From positions 1 through 43,854 of the forward strand of contig NZ_JAAALB010000048.1 of the NCBI RefSeq assembly GCF_009905545.1: a stretch of 43,854 bases of DNA, written 5' to 3'. Positions within the stretch are counted from its first letter, which is position 1, and every line of letters begins with the position of its first letter. The notes beneath the pieces are model-generated. The model searched no databases. It was not told the DNA's origin and worked only from the letters and a program-made list of their open reading frames with translations. Both the position numbers and the translations under genes were made by a program. This DNA is from Cellulophaga sp. BC115SP. Its GTDB lineage: Bacteria; Bacteroidota; Bacteroidia; Cytophagales; Spirosomataceae. Below, in pieces: positions 17,365-25,473 of this stretch.

Positions 17365-17982
17365 ATGACTGACACACTTCAAAAAGACGAAATCATCATC
17401 AAAGAGGTGATTGAAGCCGCAAAAGTTTTGTTTCAACGTTATGGTCTCAAAAAGACCACGATGGAAGATATTGCCAAATTTGTAGGTAAAGGGAAAAGTA
17501 CGTTATATTATTATTTCCCAAGTAAGATTGAAATTTTTGAAGCAGTAATTGAAAATGAAATTCGAGAACTGTTCGAATCTATCGAAATAGCTGCCTCGAA
17601 AGAAGTTACTGCAAGACAAAAATTGAAAGTGTATTGGTTGACCCGTCTCCAAAAACTTGAGAAGATGTGTAATCTTAGTCAGGTACTCAAGGAGGAGATT
17701 ATGGATCATGCCATTACTATTTTTAATCTAAAAAGAAAACACCTTCAAGAGGAATTGACCTTAGTAAAAGGGTTTTTGATTTTTGGTATCGAAAACGAAG
17801 AATTTCGCCCCGAAACAGAGGAGCATATTGAGTTACTCTGTAGAGTTATCGTAGCCTCTTTACGAGGATTTGAATTATCAAATATGGAAGTATTCGAAAT
17901 AGAGAAGGACTACATTCGCCATATCGATTTCTTGATAGATACCTTTATTGGTGGTATTGGTATTAAAGTAACTTCTGTTTAA
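17365..17982 (+). CDS. TetR family regulator, predicted controller of the inositol-lipid operon
   Basis: A 205-residue regulator with a typical N-terminal TetR helix-turn-helix at about 15-60 (LFQRYGLKKTTMEDIAKFVGKGKSTLYYYFPSKIEIF) and an all-helical ligand domain of which nothing specific is recognised. It lies 101 bp downstream of the ABC operon but has its own promoter, and 345 bp upstream of the inositol-phosphate synthase gene. The same palindrome lies on its promoter (17337) and upstream of the synthase operon (18143). I infer that it represses itself and regulates the operon, perhaps sensing a lipid or inositol compound. The ligand is unknown. Confidence 0.9.
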   Translation: MTDTLQKDEIIIKEVIEAAKVLFQRYGLKKTTMEDIAKFVGKGKSTLYYYFPSKIEIFEAVIENEIRELFESIEIAASKEVTARQKLKVYWLTRLQKLEKMCNLSQVLKEEIMDHAITIFNLKRKHLQEELTLVKGFLIFGIENEEFRPETEEHIELLCRVIVASLRGFELSNMEVFEIEKDYIRHIDFLIDTFIGGIGIKVTSV

Positions 17983-18327: not shown

Positions 18328-19665
18328 ATGAATATGAACCCTACGGTTTCGGCTGCTACAGGAAAGCTTGGTATTTTGATGCCAGGAATGGGAGCGGTTG
18401 CTACAACGTTTGTAGCAGGCGTTATTGCTTCTAGAAAAGGATTAGCGCATCCGACAGGTTCTCTTACTCAAACCGCAAACATTCGCTTGGGTAAAAGAAC
18501 AGAAAAGCGTAATCCAAAAATTAAAGATTTTGTACCCTTGGCTTCGTTAGATAGCATCGTTTTCGGAGGATGGGACGTATATGGAGACAATATGTTTGAT
18601 GCAGCGCTTAAAGCAGGTGTTTTGGATCGTGGAATGGTGGAGTTGATTCGTGAGGATTTGGAAAAAATCGTTCCTATGAAAGCGGTTTTTGATAAGCGTT
18701 ACGTAAAAAACTTAGAAGGAGATAACGTTAAGCCTCAAACAAGCAAATTAGAACTGATTGAAGAGTTGATGGCAGACATCGAAAACTTCAAAATCGCTAA
18801 TGATTGTGAGCGTTTGGTAATGGTATGGTGCGGTTCTACAGAAATCTACCATGAAGCAAAAGAGGTACACTCATCATTGGCTAATTTCGAAGCTGGTTTG
18901 GCAAGTAACGACCCAGATATTGCGCCTTCAATGATGTATGCGTATGCTGCTATCAAGTCTGGAGTACCGTTTGCCATGGGTGCACCAAACCTATGTTTGG
19001 ACATTCCTGCCCTCGAAGAATTAGCTACATTGACTCATACGCCTATTGCTGGAAAAGATTTCAAAACGGGTCAAACCTTGATGAAAACTATTGTAGCGCC
19101 AGGTTTGCGTGCTCGTGCATTAGGTGTACGTGGTTGGTTCAGTACCAATATCTTAGGTAACAGAGATGGCTTGGTGTTGGATGCGCCAGAGAACTTCAAA
19201 ACCAAAGAAGTGTCGAAAGGAAATGTGTTGGACGGTATCTTAGACGCAGAGCAAAATCCTGAATTATGGGGAGATATTCATCACAAAGTTCGTATCGAAT
19301 ATTATCCGCCACTTGGTGACAACAAAGAGGGCTGGGACAATATCGATATCTTTGGTTGGATGGGTTACCAGATGCAAATCAAAATCAATTTCTTGTGCCG
19401 TGACTCTATTTTAGCTGCCCCAATTGTATTGGATTTGGCCTTATTCCTTGATGTTGCAAAACGTGCAAACTTGTCAGGTATTCAAGAGTGGTTGTCATTC
19501 TACTGGAAAGCTCCACAAACGTTACCAGGCTTAGAACCAATCCACGATTTGTTTAAGCAATTGGAAAAATTAGAAAATACACTTCGCTATTTAATGGGCG
19601 AAGAATTGATTACAAATCTAGGAATGGATTACTACGAAAATGTAGAAGAAGACGTAGAATTGTAA
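18328..19665 (+). CDS. ino1: myo-Inositol-1-phosphate (3-phosphate) synthase
   Basis: A 445-residue NAD-dependent isomerase that turns glucose 6-phosphate into 1L-myo-inositol 1-phosphate (D-myo-inositol 3-phosphate), the first committed step to inositol lipids. Visible features: the NAD-binding segment GILMPGMGAVATTFVAGV (about 13-30), SIVFGGWDVYGDNMFDAA, the VMVWCGSTEIYHE segment, and the C-terminal catalytic half with LGVRGWFSTNILGNRDG and AGKDFKTGQTLMKT. Length fits the bacterial enzyme. Choice of start: MNMNPTVSAATGKLG; the third residue is a second possible Met. It opens a same-strand run to 25416 with short gaps or overlaps. A strong hairpin follows the stop. Confidence 0.93.
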   Translation: MNMNPTVSAATGKLGILMPGMGAVATTFVAGVIASRKGLAHPTGSLTQTANIRLGKRTEKRNPKIKDFVPLASLDSIVFGGWDVYGDNMFDAALKAGVLDRGMVELIREDLEKIVPMKAVFDKRYVKNLEGDNVKPQTSKLELIEELMADIENFKIANDCERLVMVWCGSTEIYHEAKEVHSSLANFEAGLASNDPDIAPSMMYAYAAIKSGVPFAMGAPNLCLDIPALEELATLTHTPIAGKDFKTGQTLMKTIVAPGLRARALGVRGWFSTNILGNRDGLVLDAPENFKTKEVSKGNVLDGILDAEQNPELWGDIHHKVRIEYYPPLGDNKEGWDNIDIFGWMGYQMQIKINFLCRDSILAAPIVLDLALFLDVAKRANLSGIQEWLSFYWKAPQTLPGLEPIHDLFKQLEKLENTLRYLMGEELITNLGMDYYENVEEDVEL

Positions 19666-19679
19666 TTTTCTAAAAAGTT

Positions 19680-19715
19680 GAAAGTAAGTCTATTAAACCA
19701 AATAGACTTACTTTC
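19680..19715 (+). terminator. Perfect hairpin between ino1 and the pgpA-like gene
   Basis: Stem GAAAGTAAGTCTATT / AATAGACTTACTTTC, 15 perfect base pairs with loop AAACCA, starting 14 bp after the ino1 stop. No long T-run follows, so it may be a partial terminator or RNA-stability hairpin that raises ino1 expression over the downstream genes. Confidence 0.7.
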
Positions 19716-19770
19716 ATCCAAACACAAATTAGGTGCTGTAGATTTCCTTTCTTCCTTTGTACTAAGGCAA

Positions 19771-20268
19771 ATGGCACTCTTTCCAATGAATCATCAACGA
19801 TTACATATTATCATAGCGTCAGCGCTTGGGATTGGTTATATACCCAAAGGTTCTGGTACGTTTGGAGCCATACTTGCTTGTTTGGGCGTTATTGGGTTAA
19901 ATGCGCTTTTCCCCACAAATGCTTTAGGCTATCAAGCTGTCTTAGTGGGACTTACTATTATTTTTCTCTTTATTGGTCGCAAGGCATCTGAGGTTACAGA
20001 ACAGATTTGGGGCGAAGATTCATCCAAAATTGTGATTGACGAGGTGGTCGGACAATGGCTTAGTTTATGCCTAATTCCATTCTCGTGGACCAATTTGGTA
20101 TTAGGGTTAGTACTATTTAGAATTTACGATATTTTCAAACCTTTTAATATTCGCTCTTTTGAGAAATATGAAAATGGTTGGGGAGTTATGCTAGACGATG
20201 TAGCCGCTGGAATTTGGGCCAATTTAACCTTACAAGTAATACTTCTTCTCTTTAATTTTTATGTATAA
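19771..20268 (+). CDS. PgpA-like phosphatase, probable phosphatidylinositol-phosphate phosphatase
   Basis: About 165 residues with all phosphatidylglycerophosphatase A motifs: GIGYIPKGSGTFGA, IVIDEVVGQWLSL, FRIYDIFKPF and GWGVMLDDVAAGIWAN, plus several membrane helices. In this operon the likely substrate is phosphatidylinositol phosphate, which is dephosphorylated to phosphatidylinositol. This follows the role reported, as I recall, for the PgpA homologue of the Bacteroides cluster. I prefer ATG 19771 (preceded by AAGG) or ATG 19786 over an upstream in-frame TTG at 19678, because the 36 bases after that TTG form a perfect hairpin and the added residues do not match the family. The gene overlaps the next by 8 bp. 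A general PgpA role cannot be excluded. Confidence 0.82.
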   Translation: MALFPMNHQRLHIIIASALGIGYIPKGSGTFGAILACLGVIGLNALFPTNALGYQAVLVGLTIIFLFIGRKASEVTEQIWGEDSSKIVIDEVVGQWLSLCLIPFSWTNLVLGLVLFRIYDIFKPFNIRSFEKYENGWGVMLDDVAAGIWANLTLQVILLLFNFYV

Positions 20269-20674
20269 ATATCTCAGGATATTTCTCAAGTTTATGTCAG
20301 CGTCGGGTATTGCGACGACCGTTGACTTTAGTGCCTCTTATTCACTTGTTTCAGGATTTCAGGTTAATGACGAATGGGCTACCTTGGTGGGTAATATCCT
20401 TGGTGCTATCATTGGTTTTTGGGTAAGCCGAACATGGGTTTTTCAGGCAAAAGATACGCAATCTTTAACATGGCAAGGTATCAAATATGCTATAGTTGCT
20501 GTAGGAAACTCCGCTATGAATGTAGGTGGGGTGGCCTTACTGTCACACTTTGGCTCTTGGCATTATCTTACCGTTCGAGTAGTAGTTGGAGTGATTGTAT
20601 TTGTGGTGTACAGCTACGGTCTAAATCAGTGGTTTGTATTTAAGAATAAAACGTATGAAAAGGTATCTTTATAG
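20261..20674 (+). CDS. GtrA-like small membrane protein
   Basis: 137 residues with four predicted helices (about 7-30, 38-58, 75-100 and 105-127) and the GtrA family features ASGIATTVDF near the start and SRTWVF in the middle. GtrA proteins are linked to flipping or supplying lipid-linked sugars, and sometimes act beside glycosyltransferases. The start overlaps the pgpA-like gene by 8 bp and the end overlaps the next gene by 20 bp, so it is firmly within the operon. A role in moving or decorating an inositol lipid is inference from position only. Confidence 0.8.
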   Translation: MYKYLRIFLKFMSASGIATTVDFSASYSLVSGFQVNDEWATLVGNILGAIIGFWVSRTWVFQAKDTQSLTWQGIKYAIVAVGNSAMNVGGVALLSHFGSWHYLTVRVVVGVIVFVVYSYGLNQWFVFKNKTYEKVSL

Positions 20675-23240
20675 TCTCCCTCAAGAAATAAAATTTCTCA
20701 ATAACATATTCTTCTTTCTGCTGTGCTCATGCGCTTTTGTGGCACAGTCGCAGACTATTATCAAAGGTAAAATCTCTGAAAATAAAACGAATGAAGCGAT
20801 TCCATTTGTCAATGTAACTATTTTGGGTACGTCCCAAGGGGTACAGTCGGACGTGAATGGAAATTTTACGATTACCGTAAAAGAATACGGCTCGGGTAAA
20901 GTGCAGTTTTCGTCAGTAGGTTATAAGAATGAGGTAAAATCTTTCAAAAAGGATATTACCCAAACTATTTCTATTCGCCTGACTTCAACTACACAGAATC
21001 TATCAGAAGTTGTAGTAAAAGGAAAAAAAGATAAATATCGCAACAAAGACAATCCTGCGGTGGCACTTATCAGAAAGGTGATTGATCACAAGGACGATAA
21101 CAGAAAGGAAGGCTTGGATTATTATCAGTATGAGAAATATGAAAAACTTCAGTTGGATTTGAGTAATATCGACGATGCTTACAAGAATAAGAAAATCTTT
21201 AAGAACTTTCAATTTATCTTTGATAACCTCGACACTGCAAAGCTCACAGGAAAGGTATCCCTGCCTCTGTATTTGAAAGAAACAGTTTCGGATGTCTATT
21301 TTAGGAAAAGTCCTAGGGAAGAAAAGTCTTATATCAAAGGAGAAAAGAAAGTGGGCTTAGAACAATTTCTTGATAATAATGGCATGGGGGCTTACTTAAA
21401 TAGAATGTATGAAGATGTGAATATCTACGATAACAACATCAGTCTGCTTTCGCAACAGTTTATTAGCCCAATTTCGCCACTTTCTCCAACATTTTACCGA
21501 TTTGTCATTTTGGATACGCTTCAACATGATGGCGTAAAATGTATCAATTTAGGTTTCTCGCCACGAAATCAAGCTGATTTTGCCTTCGTGGGAACGATGT
21601 ACGTAGCGATGGATTCGTCTTATGCTGTACGCCGTATCAAGATGGGAGTGCCTAAAAACATCAATCTCAACTTTGTGATGGGAATGGAGATTGAGCAAGA
21701 ATATCAACCAACCGCTGAGAAATTTTTGATGCTAGCAAAAGATGAAATCATGATTGAGTTTAATCTTTTCAAGACAGAAAATTCTCGGGGCGTGATAGGA
21801 AAGCGTGCGGTTTCTTTTCGAAATTACAAATTGAATAATCCAATTGATAACGAATATTTTAAGCCAATCCAGAAAAATGTTCTGACCGAAAATGCCTATG
21901 TAAGAGATGAGGGTTTTTGGAATCAAGCACGTCATCAACAGCTCAGTAGGGTCGAAACCAATATCTACCAAATGGCAGATAGTATTCAGAAAGTCCCTGC
22001 CTTTAAAAGAGCCATGAAAATTGCTGGATTGTTTTTATTCGGATATTCTGATTTTGGTACTTTTGAAATAGGACCTGTTAACACTTTTTATAGTTTCAAC
22101 CCTGTTGAAGGATTTCGTTTACGTCTTGGAGGGCGAACCATGGCAAAGCTGAATCCGAGATTGTATTTTGAAACTTACATGGCTTACGGATTCAAAGATG
22201 AACGCTGGAAAGGTTTTGGGGCGTTAACGTATAATTTAGGAAAAAATTCAATTTATGAATTTCCTAATAATTATCTACGTGTATCTTATCAGGATGAAGT
22301 ACGTATTCCTGGACAAGAGTTACAGTTTATTCAAGAGGATAACTTTTTGTTGTCTTTCAAAAGAGGAGTAAACGATAAAATGACCTATAATAAAGTCCTT
22401 CGTGTTGACTACCGAAAAGAATCTCGTTCAGGCATTAGTTATGAAATAGGTTTGAAAAACTTGAGTCAAGAAGCAGCAGGGAGTTTAACATTTCAAAAAG
22501 TAGGAAAACTTGATGGCATTGTGATTACAGATAGAACAGTGACTTCTACGGAGCTCTCTTTTAATTTAAGATTTGCGCCAAATGAGCAGTTTTATCAAGG
22601 TAAAAATTATCGTATTCCAATTATTAACAAGTATCCAATTTTTCAGGCAAGATATACTTTGGGTATTGCCAATATTTTGAATAGTGGTTATAATTTTCAT
22701 AATATCACCTTGCGTGCCAATAAACGTTTCTTTATTTCACCGATTGGCTATACCGATGTAACAGCTGAAGGTGGTAGAATTTTTGGAAAAGTGCCATATC
22801 CTTTGTTGATGATTCACCGTGCAAACCAATCGTACTCATACCAATTAGAGTCATATAACTTGATGAATTTCTTGGAGTTTGTAAGTGACCAATACGCTGG
22901 TTTGTTTGTCGATCATTATTTCAATGGATTTTTCTTCAACAAAATACCATTAATCAAAAAATTGAAATTTCGTGAGATTATTACTTTCAAGGCACTCTAT
23001 GGTAGTTTGAGTGATAAAAATAATCCGAATCTCAACCCAGATTTGTATAAATTCCCAACCAATGAAGAAGGGCAAGTGCTCACACATTCGCTCAACAATG
23101 GTCCCTACATGGAGGCTAGTATTGGTATAGGCAATATCCTGAAGTTTTTCAGAGTAGACTTTGTCAAAAGGTTGAGCTACTTGGACAACCCTCAGGTGTC
23201 TGAATATGGTATTAGAGGACGATTTAAAATGGATTTTTAG
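20655..23240 (+). CDS. DUF5686 / carboxypeptidase-regulatory-like outer membrane protein
   Basis: 861 residues. A hydrophobic signal (about 18-34, ending CAFVAQSQ) is followed by a CarboxypepD_reg-like beta domain at about 36-110 (TIIKGKISENKTNEAIPFVNVTILGTSQGV, then VNGNFTITV). The large DUF5686 region follows and ends in a repeated beta-strand pattern with a terminal aromatic residue (GRFKMDF), typical of an outer-membrane beta-barrel. I use ATG 20655, not the upstream TTG at 20634, because it precedes the signal peptide directly and reduces the overlap with the GtrA gene to 20 bp. The function of DUF5686 is unknown. Its place inside an inositol-lipid operon suggests a role at the outer membrane, for example in placing or sensing the lipid. 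Confidence 0.85.
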   Translation: MKRYLYSLPQEIKFLNNIFFFLLCSCAFVAQSQTIIKGKISENKTNEAIPFVNVTILGTSQGVQSDVNGNFTITVKEYGSGKVQFSSVGYKNEVKSFKKDITQTISIRLTSTTQNLSEVVVKGKKDKYRNKDNPAVALIRKVIDHKDDNRKEGLDYYQYEKYEKLQLDLSNIDDAYKNKKIFKNFQFIFDNLDTAKLTGKVSLPLYLKETVSDVYFRKSPREEKSYIKGEKKVGLEQFLDNNGMGAYLNRMYEDVNIYDNNISLLSQQFISPISPLSPTFYRFVILDTLQHDGVKCINLGFSPRNQADFAFVGTMYVAMDSSYAVRRIKMGVPKNINLNFVMGMEIEQEYQPTAEKFLMLAKDEIMIEFNLFKTENSRGVIGKRAVSFRNYKLNNPIDNEYFKPIQKNVLTENAYVRDEGFWNQARHQQLSRVETNIYQMADSIQKVPAFKRAMKIAGLFLFGYSDFGTFEIGPVNTFYSFNPVEGFRLRLGGRTMAKLNPRLYFETYMAYGFKDERWKGFGALTYNLGKNSIYEFPNNYLRVSYQDEVRIPGQELQFIQEDNFLLSFKRGVNDKMTYNKVLRVDYRKESRSGISYEIGLKNLSQEAAGSLTFQKVGKLDGIVITDRTVTSTELSFNLRFAPNEQFYQGKNYRIPIINKYPIFQARYTLGIANILNSGYNFHNITLRANKRFFISPIGYTDVTAEGGRIFGKVPYPLLMIHRANQSYSYQLESYNLMNFLEFVSDQYAGLFVDHYFNGFFFNKIPLIKKLKFREIITFKALYGSLSDKNNPNLNPDLYKFPTNEEGQVLTHSLNNGPYMEASIGIGNILKFFRVDFVKRLSYLDNPQVSEYGIRGRFKMDF

Positions 23241-23272
23241 CCTAAACAAGTATTAATAAATCACTTAGAACT

Positions 23273-23980
23273 ATGTATGCACTTAAATCAGCAGGGCAAC
23301 AATTGATATACAAATTGATTAACCCTTTTATAAATTTATTGATTGCCTTAAAAATTACGCCCAATATGATAACCACCACTGGCTTAGTGTTGAATATCGG
23401 AGCGGCAGGAATCTTTATTTATGGCGCTGAGGCATCTCATCGTGGCGACTTAAGTATCGTAGGGTGGGGTGGAGCTATGATTCTTTTTGCTGGAGTATTC
23501 GACATGATTGATGGTCGTTTGGCACGTGTGAGTAATACCTCCTCAAAGTTCGGGGCATTTTATGACTCCGTATTGGATCGCTACAGCGAGATGTTTATGT
23601 TTTTGGGAATATGCTATTACTTGGTAGCACATCATTATTTATTTAGTTCATTTTTTGCCTTTTTAGCACTTATTGGCTCTTCAATGGTGAGTTACACTAG
23701 AGCTAGAGCAGAAGGATTGAATATTAAATGTGAAATTGGTTGGATGCAAAGACCCGAAAGAATTGTAATTATTGGAGGTTCTGCGTTGTTATGTGGTTTG
23801 TTGGCGCCAGTTTTTGGTGCAGATTTTAGAATAGAGGGTCCTAGCGAAAGAATACCTTGGTTTGAATCTATTTCTGTATTTACCATTCCATTAGCCATCG
23901 TGGCAATCTTGTCCAACTTCACCGCTATTCAGCGAATAGAATATACACAAAAGGAGTTAAGTAAAAATGAAACAAAATAA
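23273..23980 (+). CDS. CDP-alcohol phosphatidyltransferase, probable phosphatidylinositol-phosphate synthase
   Basis: A 235-residue integral membrane enzyme with the complete family motif D77-x2-D80-G-x2-A-R-x8-G-x3-D98-x3-D102 (within FDMIDGRLARVSN and GAFYDSVLDR). The enzyme class joins CDP-diacylglycerol with an alcohol. With inositol phosphate synthase in the operon, the expected product is phosphatidylinositol phosphate, which the PgpA-like enzyme can dephosphorylate. It starts 32 bp after the DUF5686 gene and overlaps the next gene by 14 bp. Other alcohols (glycerol phosphate, serine) cannot be excluded from the motif alone, but the context argues for inositol phosphate. Confidence 0.87.
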   Translation: MYALKSAGQQLIYKLINPFINLLIALKITPNMITTTGLVLNIGAAGIFIYGAEASHRGDLSIVGWGGAMILFAGVFDMIDGRLARVSNTSSKFGAFYDSVLDRYSEMFMFLGICYYLVAHHYLFSSFFAFLALIGSSMVSYTRARAEGLNIKCEIGWMQRPERIVIIGGSALLCGLLAPVFGADFRIEGPSERIPWFESISVFTIPLAIVAILSNFTAIQRIEYTQKELSKNETK

Positions 23981-24494
23981 GCTCTTGTGGTTGTTTGTTG
24001 GCTTACTATTAGTGAGTTTTTCACCCGCTCATTACCCCAAAGTTCCTGATTCAAAAGTAAGACTGTTTTATATTCAACGGAGTTCAAACGTTAATACTAT
24101 CGTCTATGATGCACGTCTCAATCCTAAAGGTGGGTTTGATGAAGATAACCCCGTAGATGTGTATTGGTTGCGCTATCAAGAAGATGGACGTCGAAAAGAA
24201 CTTTCATGGATACAGCGGGTATTAGCGTATGGAGTAGATACCGAAACCATTGAAGGGCAAGCAGATGCACTTCAAGCATGGGTAGTTTCTTATAAAAAAC
24301 GTAAGCTTCGATTAGGCTTTGACAAAAACAAAAAGCCTTACGCTTCATTATTGATTAATAACCAATTAGCAAAACTCGACCATGTGTATGTACAAATCGA
24401 AGGGAGTAATTTACGCCCGAAAGTATTGTATGTAGAAGTATTTGGAAGAGATTTTTATTCAGGAGAAAATGTTTATGAAAAAATCAAACCGTAG
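23967..24494 (+). CDS. DUF4833 protein, exported
   Basis: 175 residues with an N-terminal hydrophobic signal (LLWLFVGLLLVSFSPAH) and a small soluble domain containing LFYIQRSSNVNTIVYDAR, VDVYWLRY and LSWIQRVLAYG, which match DUF4833. No enzyme motif is recognised. It overlaps both neighbours (14 bp upstream, 20 bp downstream), so it is translationally coupled to the phosphatidyltransferase and the PAP2 enzyme. I recall a DUF4833 gene in the related Bacteroides cluster too. A periplasmic accessory role in inositol lipid assembly is inference. Confidence 0.8.
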   Translation: MKQNKLLWLFVGLLLVSFSPAHYPKVPDSKVRLFYIQRSSNVNTIVYDARLNPKGGFDEDNPVDVYWLRYQEDGRRKELSWIQRVLAYGVDTETIEGQADALQAWVVSYKKRKLRLGFDKNKKPYASLLINNQLAKLDHVYVQIEGSNLRPKVLYVEVFGRDFYSGENVYEKIKP

Positions 24495-25416
24495 TAGCGT
24501 GCTAAACATTGAGGATACAGGATTTGAACGCTTCTCAGTTAAGAATATTTTAGGTTTAGTTATATTCACACCCTTATTCTTTTTTTGGTATATCAAGTTC
24601 ATTGGCTTGTTGCCAGAACATATAATATTGTATGTATTGTTTGTTTCTACCTACTTTGGCAATAAGTTTAGTCGTGAAATTATCTTATCTTTTGCCATTT
24701 ATATAGTGTATTGGGCCATTTATGATTCTTTTAGGGTATTTCCGAATTATGAGTTCAACACAGTACATATTCAACAACCTTACGAATTGGATAAGGCTCT
24801 TTTTGGGGTAAAATACCAAGGACAACTACTTACACTGAGCGAATATTTTGCTAAAGTTCATGTGCCATTTTTTGATGTATTAGCAGGTATTTTTTATATC
24901 AACTGGGTTCCAATTCCTATTGCGTTATCACTGTATTTTTATCTTAAGAAAAGACCATTATTTTATTCTTTTGCTTACTGTTTTGTGTTTGTGAATTTTC
25001 TCGGTTGGATCGTCTATTATGCCTATCCTGCGGCTCCACCTTGGTATGTTGCAGAGCACGGATTTGCCTTAGATTTGCATACCCAAGGCAGTGAGGCTGG
25101 TTTGAGATACTTTGACCAAATTCTTGATGTAAACCTATTTAAAGGTATGTATGTACGAAACTCTAATGTATTTGCGGCTATGCCATCTTTACATTCAGCG
25201 TTTCCGTTAATTACACTATATTATGGATTGAAATCAAAATTAGGTTGGTTTAACATCTTTTTTGTCATATTCTGTTTAGGAATCTGGGGAGCGGCAGTGT
25301 ACACCAGTCATCATTATGTTATTGATGTACTATGTGGCATTTCGGTGGCTTCTTTGGGAATATTCCTATTTGAGAAGTTTTTAGATAAGAAAGTTCAAGT
25401 AATGTTTGCCAAATAA
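24475..25416 (+). CDS. PAP2/AUR1-like membrane enzyme, probable inositol phosphoceramide synthase
   Basis: 313 residues with about six membrane helices. Phosphatase-superfamily motifs are present: PSLHSA (237-242, catalytic H240) and SHHYVID (278-284, with H279/H280 and D284). These match the AUR1/IPC-synthase pattern, in which the enzyme transfers phosphoinositol from phosphatidylinositol to ceramide. I chose ATG 24475 because AGGAG lies 9 bases upstream; ATG 24469 is close by, and an upstream TTG at 24442 is unlikely. It is the last gene of the operon and is followed by a strong terminator. A simple lipid phosphatase is the alternative. Whether the organism makes ceramide is not visible in the window. 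Confidence 0.82.
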   Translation: MKKSNRSSVLNIEDTGFERFSVKNILGLVIFTPLFFFWYIKFIGLLPEHIILYVLFVSTYFGNKFSREIILSFAIYIVYWAIYDSFRVFPNYEFNTVHIQQPYELDKALFGVKYQGQLLTLSEYFAKVHVPFFDVLAGIFYINWVPIPIALSLYFYLKKRPLFYSFAYCFVFVNFLGWIVYYAYPAAPPWYVAEHGFALDLHTQGSEAGLRYFDQILDVNLFKGMYVRNSNVFAAMPSLHSAFPLITLYYGLKSKLGWFNIFFVIFCLGIWGAAVYTSHHYVIDVLCGISVASLGIFLFEKFLDKKVQVMFAK

Positions 25417-25441: not shown

Positions 25442-25473
25442 AAAAAAAGCCTGAGAAACCTCAGGCTTTTTTT
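25442..25473. terminator. Terminator of the inositol-lipid operon
   Basis: Stem AAAAAAAGCCTGAG / CTCAGGCTTTTTTT with loop AAAC. It has an A-run on the left and a T-run on the right, so it also serves the convergent GntR gene. Confidence 0.93.

Follow-up and report, generated by a model that had tools for sequence, protein, structure and literature searches.

The window analysed here is a stretch of 43,854 bp, contig C150 (NZ_JAAALB010000048.1) of the 7.08 Mb genome of Cellulophaga sp. BC115SP, and it carries a seven-gene operon predicted to make inositol lipids. All seven open reading frames (ORFs) lie on the + strand in the order given by an earlier note made from the sequence alone, and every domain scores above its Pfam curated cut-off. 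The operon is composed of ino1, encoding MIPS (18328..19665; PF07994, NAD_binding_5, 329 bits, and PF01658, Inos-1-P_synth, 114 bits); a PgpA-like gene for a probable phosphatidylinositol phosphate (PIP) phosphatase similar to BT_1525 of Bacteroides thetaiotaomicron (19786..20268; PF04608, 128.7 bits); a gene for a small GtrA-like membrane protein similar to BT_1524 (20261..20674; PF04138, GtrA_DPMS_TM, 66 bits); a gene for a predicted outer-membrane barrel protein of 861 amino acids (aa) with CarbopepD_reg_2 and DUF5686 domains (20655..23240; Pfam, AlphaFold2 and Foldseek); PIPS, a BT_1523-like CDP-alcohol phosphatidyltransferase (23273..23980; PF01066, CDP-OH_P_transf, NF052561 and motif); a gene for a beta-rich DUF4833 protein of 175 aa with an N-terminal signal-like segment (23967..24494; PF16117, 131.9 bits); and a PAP2/AUR1-like gene for a probable inositol phosphoceramide (IPC) synthase (24475..25416; PF14378, PAP2_3, and NF052609).

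As described in the earlier note, the genes mostly overlap, at four of the six junctions, by 8, 20, 14 and 20 bp. The remaining junctions are gaps of 32 bp (DUF5686-PIPS) and 120 bp (ino1-PgpA). DUF5686 probably starts at ATG 20655 and PAP2 at ATG 24475. For PgpA, ATG 19786 is more likely than TTG 19678, because the latter is TTA in L121, the sole relative aligned there, and because the lengths of the 40 other PgpA ORFs range over 148-168 aa. The 120-bp gap contains a stem-loop of 16 pairs (19679..19716, + strand), identified by pattern scan and by folding of 161 nt (z -3.1, with 0 of 200 shuffles as good). Because of this gap and hairpin, the expression of ino1 may differ from that of the six downstream genes, from which the hairpin may uncouple it. 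Stem-loops of differing sequence also separate ino1 from PgpA in Flectobacillus and its close relatives (L038-L042, L121 and L122), the hairpin of L041 and L122 carrying a terminator-like T-run. No such stem-loop was found in nine loci of other genera, where the gaps are short, and in L069 the gap is long and contains different hairpins. After the last gene, the intrinsic terminator that closes the operon can be read from the sequence between converging genes (25442..25473, + strand), as claimed, with a 14-bp stem (25442-25455/25460-25473) and A- and T-runs; it is absent from the pattern-scan list of window hairpins, a probable reason being that its T-run is part of the stem.

The core genes point to an IPC-type pathway. 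Searched against the PDB, the ino1 product matched solved MIP synthases, the best being 7nwr (annotated inositol-3-phosphate synthase, E 3.4e-155). The CDP-alcohol motif reported earlier, D-x2-DG-x2-AR-x8-G-x3-D-x3-D, is complete at PIPS residues 77-102, its named residues are invariant in 14 of 14 aligned sequences, and the PIPS profile matches solved PIP synthases. PIPS scored 349.9 bits in the window search and 350.1 in the genome search against NF052561, the PIPSynBT1523 equivalog, which has a cut-off of 350. The PAP2 protein has NF052609, the phosphatidylinositol (PI)-dihydroceramide synthase equivalog, as its sole NCBIfam family match, and its SLHS (238) and HHYVID (279) motifs are both predicted to face the periplasm from simple hydropathy and charge distribution. 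An NTP transferase and HAD hydrolase beside a CDP-alcohol transferase were not found among the Pfam-annotated window genes. According to PMC9246714, the B. thetaiotaomicron genes encode PI-dihydroceramide synthase (BT_1522), PIPS (BT_1523), GtrA (BT_1524), PIP phosphatase (BT_1525) and MIPS (BT_1526). Given these identities, the whole BT_1522-1526 set, GtrA included, is found in the window operon, which brings together MIPS, a PgpA-like enzyme, GtrA, PIPS with its catalytic motif and a PAP2/AUR1-like enzyme. The biosynthetic reading is well supported by homology: an operon for inositol lipids of the IPC type, with the Bacteroides IPC set as its core, in a relative from the environment. PIPS occurs in 27 of 395 genomes sampled from the class, 29 of 222 from the family and 10 of 198 from the order of genome G607 (probably Bacteroidales), and IPC-type operons extend well beyond the gut. 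By homology to B. thetaiotaomicron, MIPS would produce inositol phosphate, PIPS would couple this product to CDP-diacylglycerol, and removal of a phosphate by the PgpA-like enzyme would yield PI. PI would then be moved to the periplasmic leaflet, where the PAP2/AUR1-like enzyme, its motifs placed on that side by charge, would transfer phosphoinositol to ceramide.

GtrA is the candidate flippase for that movement of PI. The earlier note had taken GtrA for an added gene and had counted DUF4833 within the gut set, and neither assignment holds. GtrA corresponds to BT_1524 of the gut cluster in PMC9246714 and PMC8791184, and was rejected as an added export gene; the described set, BT_1522-1526, is without DUF4833, which was rejected as a gut-set member. 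DUF5686 does stand as an addition to the described five-gene core, so the picture of which genes exceed the gut cluster is corrected to DUF4833 plus DUF5686. Sartorio 2022 (PMC8791184) reports less IPC and more PI in the membranes of a BT1524 mutant, with the extra PI not in vesicles. Because the IPC synthase is predicted to be periplasmic, and because of these mutant data, the simplest reading, by analogy, would be that GtrA is a PI flippase at the inner membrane and not at the surface.

Analysis of related loci indicates that both added genes are widely kept with PIPS. Loci were counted by a stop-to-stop ORF survey within 9 kb on one strand. The named loci (L121-L200) are the best 80 of at least 591 confirmed matches and are for that reason biased to close relatives; 23 of the 80 belong to Sphingobacteriaceae, and the closest is Flectobacillus sp. 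BAB-3569, with 97% identity in both PIPS and DUF5686. DUF5686 lies immediately upstream of PIPS in 72 of the 80, whereas DUF4833 forms a fusion with PIPS in 44 loci and is its neighbour in 30. The other genes of the set are also frequent (ino1 in 59, PgpA in 69, GtrA in 70 and PAP2 in 75), as are SPT (51), GNAT (46), epimerase (50) and fatty-acid hydroxylase (52) genes. These figures for DUF5686, GtrA and ino1 show the co-conservation that the earlier note had proposed to look for. A second set of 54 PIPS loci (within L038-L091) shares genomes with the first (e.g. L121 with L040), and the counts are not added; here DUF5686 is immediately upstream in 42, and DUF4833 is fused in 16 and adjacent in 30. 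The 72 DUF5686-PIPS loci come from 14 named Bacteroidota families, records without a family and one record labelled Rhodocyclaceae, and the arrangement is not due to chance, since the gene order is identical in many named families. The Rhodocyclaceae record is a metagenome-assembled genome labelled Azovibrio that carries a Bacteroidota operon (L171), probably a binning error. In another genome (G506), the DUF5686 gene is in three separate pieces adjoining an intact PIPS-DUF4833 fusion ORF (L064:6966-9531). No paper naming DUF4833 or DUF5686 was found in the open-licence literature, none of the papers listed by further searches there deals with the present form of the operon, judging from titles and the opening words of abstracts, and the available part of a 2025 paper on Sphingobacterium sphingolipids (PMC12724326) does not mention an operon, gene cluster or GtrA.

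The order of G607 provides a case for regarding the operon as a plain B. thetaiotaomicron-type IPC operon, in which DUF5686 and DUF4833 are mere genetic neighbours with no role in the lipid. Eight of its loci (L067, L069, L084, L246 and L248-L251) have PgpA-GtrA-PIPS-PAP2, with ino1 adjacent in some and PgpA missing from L251, and neither added gene is directly adjacent, DUF5686 lying within several kb in L067, L069 and L246. In two further loci, both from one genome of this order (L247 and L252), DUF5686 and DUF4833 are both next to PIPS. L248 has GNAT-CerR-ino1-PgpA-GtrA-PIPS-PAP2 in a single row, linking ceramide and inositol genes. We consider the neighbour explanation improbable, because adjacency is kept in the 14 named families, with fusion in several, and because both genes are retained when the head-group module is exchanged.

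This exchange was found in genomes of the same family without an NF052561 PIPS, which have a second operon type (type B). Its order is SPT-GNAT-CerR-DUF5686-NTP transferase-289 aa-CDP-alcohol transferase-LPG_synthase_TM-HAD-PfkB-DUF4833, often with a hydroxylase behind; some operons assigned to type B have a gene that was not called. Against a profile of the operon DUF5686, the matches listed from the 222 family genomes form two score groups, one at or above 1140 bits and one at or below 602, with six at 682-1006. We hand-picked 38 DUF5686 copies not beside PIPS from the high-scoring rows, with at most four candidates scored per genome. Among these, 21 are in type B operons, all 21 of which contain DUF4833, and 10 are beside a cytidylyltransferase/transketolase/aminotransferase/SDR/HAD/NeuB cluster (type C, by Pfam); two others are beside ceramide genes without a head-group set and one is beside DUF4833. 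Close DUF5686 paralogues beside such a cluster are found in L280-L289 and in the genome of the window itself (L214:8292-10880, contig C78), where one opposite-strand ORF separates the two. With its close DUF5686 paralogue, the type C cluster could possibly serve another surface glycolipid. In L104, two DUF4833 genes flank a similar-looking cluster. In a DUF5686 tree of 54 rows, the PIPS-adjacent label requires six changes; shuffled labels require 14.7, and 0 of 500 shuffles came out as low. The type B copy of L094 is grouped with one from a Dyadobacter PIPS operon (SH-aLRT 100). No clean clade results, as the group with the 37 PIPS-adjacent rows also holds seven others. Because different head-group chemistries keep both envelope genes, DUF5686 and DUF4833 probably act after head-group synthesis, on a shared product.

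Regarding the DUF4833 protein, its model is mostly beta (pLDDT 87.7, pTM 0.81). By fold, the best PDB match has E 0.17, short of the threshold of E 0.001; by sequence, there is none up to E 1, and a fold-based function was thus rejected. The chemistry of PIPS is cytoplasmic. If the PIPS end of the fused ORFs is so too, DUF4833 would be periplasmic, because in the 10 such ORFs examined of 43 a hydrophobic segment lies between PIPS and DUF4833. In the class sample, DUF4833 is present in 22 of 27 genomes with PIPS and in 21 of 368 without. Alternatively, DUF4833 could be an enzyme or scaffold at the inner-membrane PIP or PI step, leaving any placement of the lipid to DUF5686. The fusion to PIPS in 44 of the 80 named loci is in line with this, as are invariant residues such as Q37, N41, N43, W67, Y88 and G89 (42 sequences). 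Such a role is unlikely, given that DUF4833 is in all the sampled type B operons, which lack a BT1523-type PIPS, beside another CDP-alcohol transferase and GtrA (L098), beside GtrA (L097 and L110) and in loci where no lipid genes are obvious (e.g. L099-L103 and L106), and that its predicted side is periplasmic and the PIPS chemistry cytoplasmic. In L097, L098 and L110, DUF4833 follows GtrA, after SDR-like and PhyH-like genes; the intervening CDP-alcohol transferase of L098 is Pfam-confirmed, and L097 and L110 have an ORF of similar size. These loci represent a possible further lipid operon type.

The AlphaFold2 model of DUF5686 (pLDDT 78, pTM 0.55) has a CarbopepD_reg domain, a middle part (residues 134-393) of helices and long strands, and barrel-like strands at the C-terminus, in agreement, at the level of a model, with the earlier description as a barrel protein. 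A Foldseek search with this model gave 135 PDB matches at E 0.001 or better, and the best 50 are all BamA/TamA/Sam50/Toc75, with E from 1e-7 to 5.5e-6, probability 1.00 and target TM of 0.63-0.64 against TamA barrel-only entries. DUF5686 thus resembles Omp85 barrels in its predicted fold, and sequence profiles do not confirm kinship. Membership of the Omp85 family was rejected, the fold search being its sole support, as was kinship with BamP (one NCBIfam match, 21.8 bits against a cut-off of 230). BamA, TamA, Sam50 and Toc75 are known mostly as protein insertases. The fold likeness would therefore also suit an outer-membrane protein assembly or homeostasis factor for a sphingolipid-rich membrane, which would aid the folding of barrels in that lipid and would not carry it, with DUF4833 as periplasmic partner. 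Findings on F. johnsoniae (PMC12045153) count in favour of this, and they lessen the force of likening DUF5686 to TamA in a role with lipids. We regard it as a minority explanation, since most sampled DUF5686 copies adjoin lipid- or sugar-making genes, although no search of these neighbourhoods was aimed at assembly factors, and since both IPC-type routes share DUF5686 and DUF4833, not the head-group enzymes.

Taken together, we read the locus, with a probability of about 60%, as a Cytophagales form of the Bacteroidota IPC operon in which DUF4833 and DUF5686 act after head-group synthesis, on the placement of the sphingolipid. DUF4833, predicted to be periplasmic and often tethered to PIPS, and DUF5686, a predicted outer-membrane barrel, would together see to the hand-over of the finished sphingolipid, its placement or its accommodation in the outer membrane. 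The idea of export or lipid placement in the earlier note is strengthened in this form and is plausible. A more specific version is doubtful, if conceivable: DUF5686 would be dedicated to translocating or inserting sphingolipids at the outer membrane by means of a BamA/TamA-like barrel, DUF4833 would be its periplasmic hand-over factor, the pair would serve IPC operons whatever their head-group chemistry, and DUF5686 paralogues would serve other surface glycolipids.

Several observations weigh against the reading that we hold most probable, in its biosynthetic or its placement part. In the literature, BT_1522-1526 are called necessary and sufficient for IPC synthesis, which also favours the neighbour explanation, and IPC is found in vesicles (Sartorio 2022, PMC8791184); thin-layer chromatography (TLC) shows no change without GtrA, and Flectobacillus major is the named exception to the agreement of genome prediction and TLC, the direction being unstated (Heaver 2022, PMC9246714). 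DUF5686 is a multi-copy family, with five members in the window's own genome, whose unlinked paralogues L211, L213 and L214 fall inside the PIPS-linked group of the tree, two of them on long branches, and 4 of the 38 picked copies have no lipid context. L041, from the same genus, has the operon without DUF4833, and the DUF4833 of the window is diverged and groups with its own unlinked paralogue (L093, support 86). As for the barrel, the whole Foldseek superposition is poor (query TM 0.25-0.29, root-mean-square deviation about 6-13 A), a POTRA or Omp85 Pfam domain was not found in 36 DUF5686 members scanned, and hhalign gave no kinship (probability 0.1-0.9%) with three Omp85 targets from relatives, namely two shallow alignments, of 12 and 7 rows, and a single row; usable proteins came from 20 of the 30 loci. 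The PAP2 protein scores 286.7 bits against NF052609, well below the cut-off of 480, which three of 10 PAP2 proteins tested pass (L067, L069 and L084); in the order of G607, L246 has 478 and L248 has 334, and L070, L053, L043 and L063 have 311-346. Finally, none of the three SPT-family ORFs found in the genome passes the SPT cut-off.

The supply of ceramide and inositol differs among the relatives. In many of them the operon opens with SPT, GNAT and NAD-epimerase genes, and a fatty-acid hydroxylase precedes PAP2 (Pfam); one relative's SPT was tested against NCBIfam SerpalmtaseCFB and reached 746 bits (cut-off 640). From context, we take GNAT to be bCerS and the epimerase to be CerR. These gene types, together with the Caulobacter ceramide pathway of Spt, bCerS and CerR given in Uchendu 2024 (PMC11087976), are the reason why the larger operon can be read as a single unit leading from serine to IPC. 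In the genome of the window, GNAT candidates (C110 and C125) are located away from the operon. As to its three SPT-family ORFs, one is Kbl, above cut-off, one is beside biotin genes and best for BioF, and the candidate left is a divergent 434-aa SPT/AONS-family ORF (L207:7811-9115, contig C1), with 294 against 640 bits and under every cut-off. PMC5155239 describes F. major as an organism that produces sphingolipids. Among 32 genomes searched, ino1 was not found in 14, namely 12 of 15 Spirosoma (g3), one Dyadobacter and G190. A PfkB-family gene adjoins nine Spirosoma clusters (L051-L053, L055, L057-L059, L062 and L064) and is also inside type B operons (L094), which suggests an inositol kinase as a candidate alternative entry of inositol. 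Directly upstream of the window operon is a TetR-family gene (17365..17982, + strand; PF00440), a possible regulator, and genes of this TetR cluster recur in 21 of 55 loci.

Compared with the gut cluster, the window operon has MIPS, the PgpA-like PIP phosphatase, GtrA, PIPS and the PAP2/AUR1-like synthase in common with BT_1522-BT_1526, and the order MIPS-PgpA-GtrA-PIPS-PAP2 follows from the BT numbering and from loci such as L067 and L069. In contrast, PIPS of the window is flanked by the two added genes, DUF5686 separating it from GtrA and DUF4833 from PAP2, and many relatives of the window add ceramide-synthesis and hydroxylase genes. The SPT, GNAT and NAD-epimerase genes of these relatives match the three enzyme types of the Caulobacter pathway, whereas the window operon itself lacks Spt, bCerS and CerR genes of that type. 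The Omp85 superfamily, which has a conserved RGF/RGY motif in barrel loop 6, is where the listed Foldseek matches of the DUF5686 model lie, and DUF5686 differs from it in its N-terminal CarbopepD_reg domain and in having no POTRA/Omp85 Pfam match. If the more specific translocase version were true, DUF5686 and DUF4833 would supply the outer-membrane step that is missing from bacterial sphingolipid transport; the operon puts names to these two candidates, and to GtrA, within a layout that is genetically simple. The alternative cluster of B. vulgatus/Prevotella-like type proposed in Heaver's paper has an NTP transferase, a CDP-alcohol transferase and a HAD hydrolase. The gene types of type B resemble it, and the chemistry of the window, with PIPS, PgpA-like and PAP2 enzymes, differs from it. 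In relatives of the same family, these alternative cluster types sit with close DUF5686 relatives and with DUF4833, so that two chemically different head-group routes share two envelope proteins.

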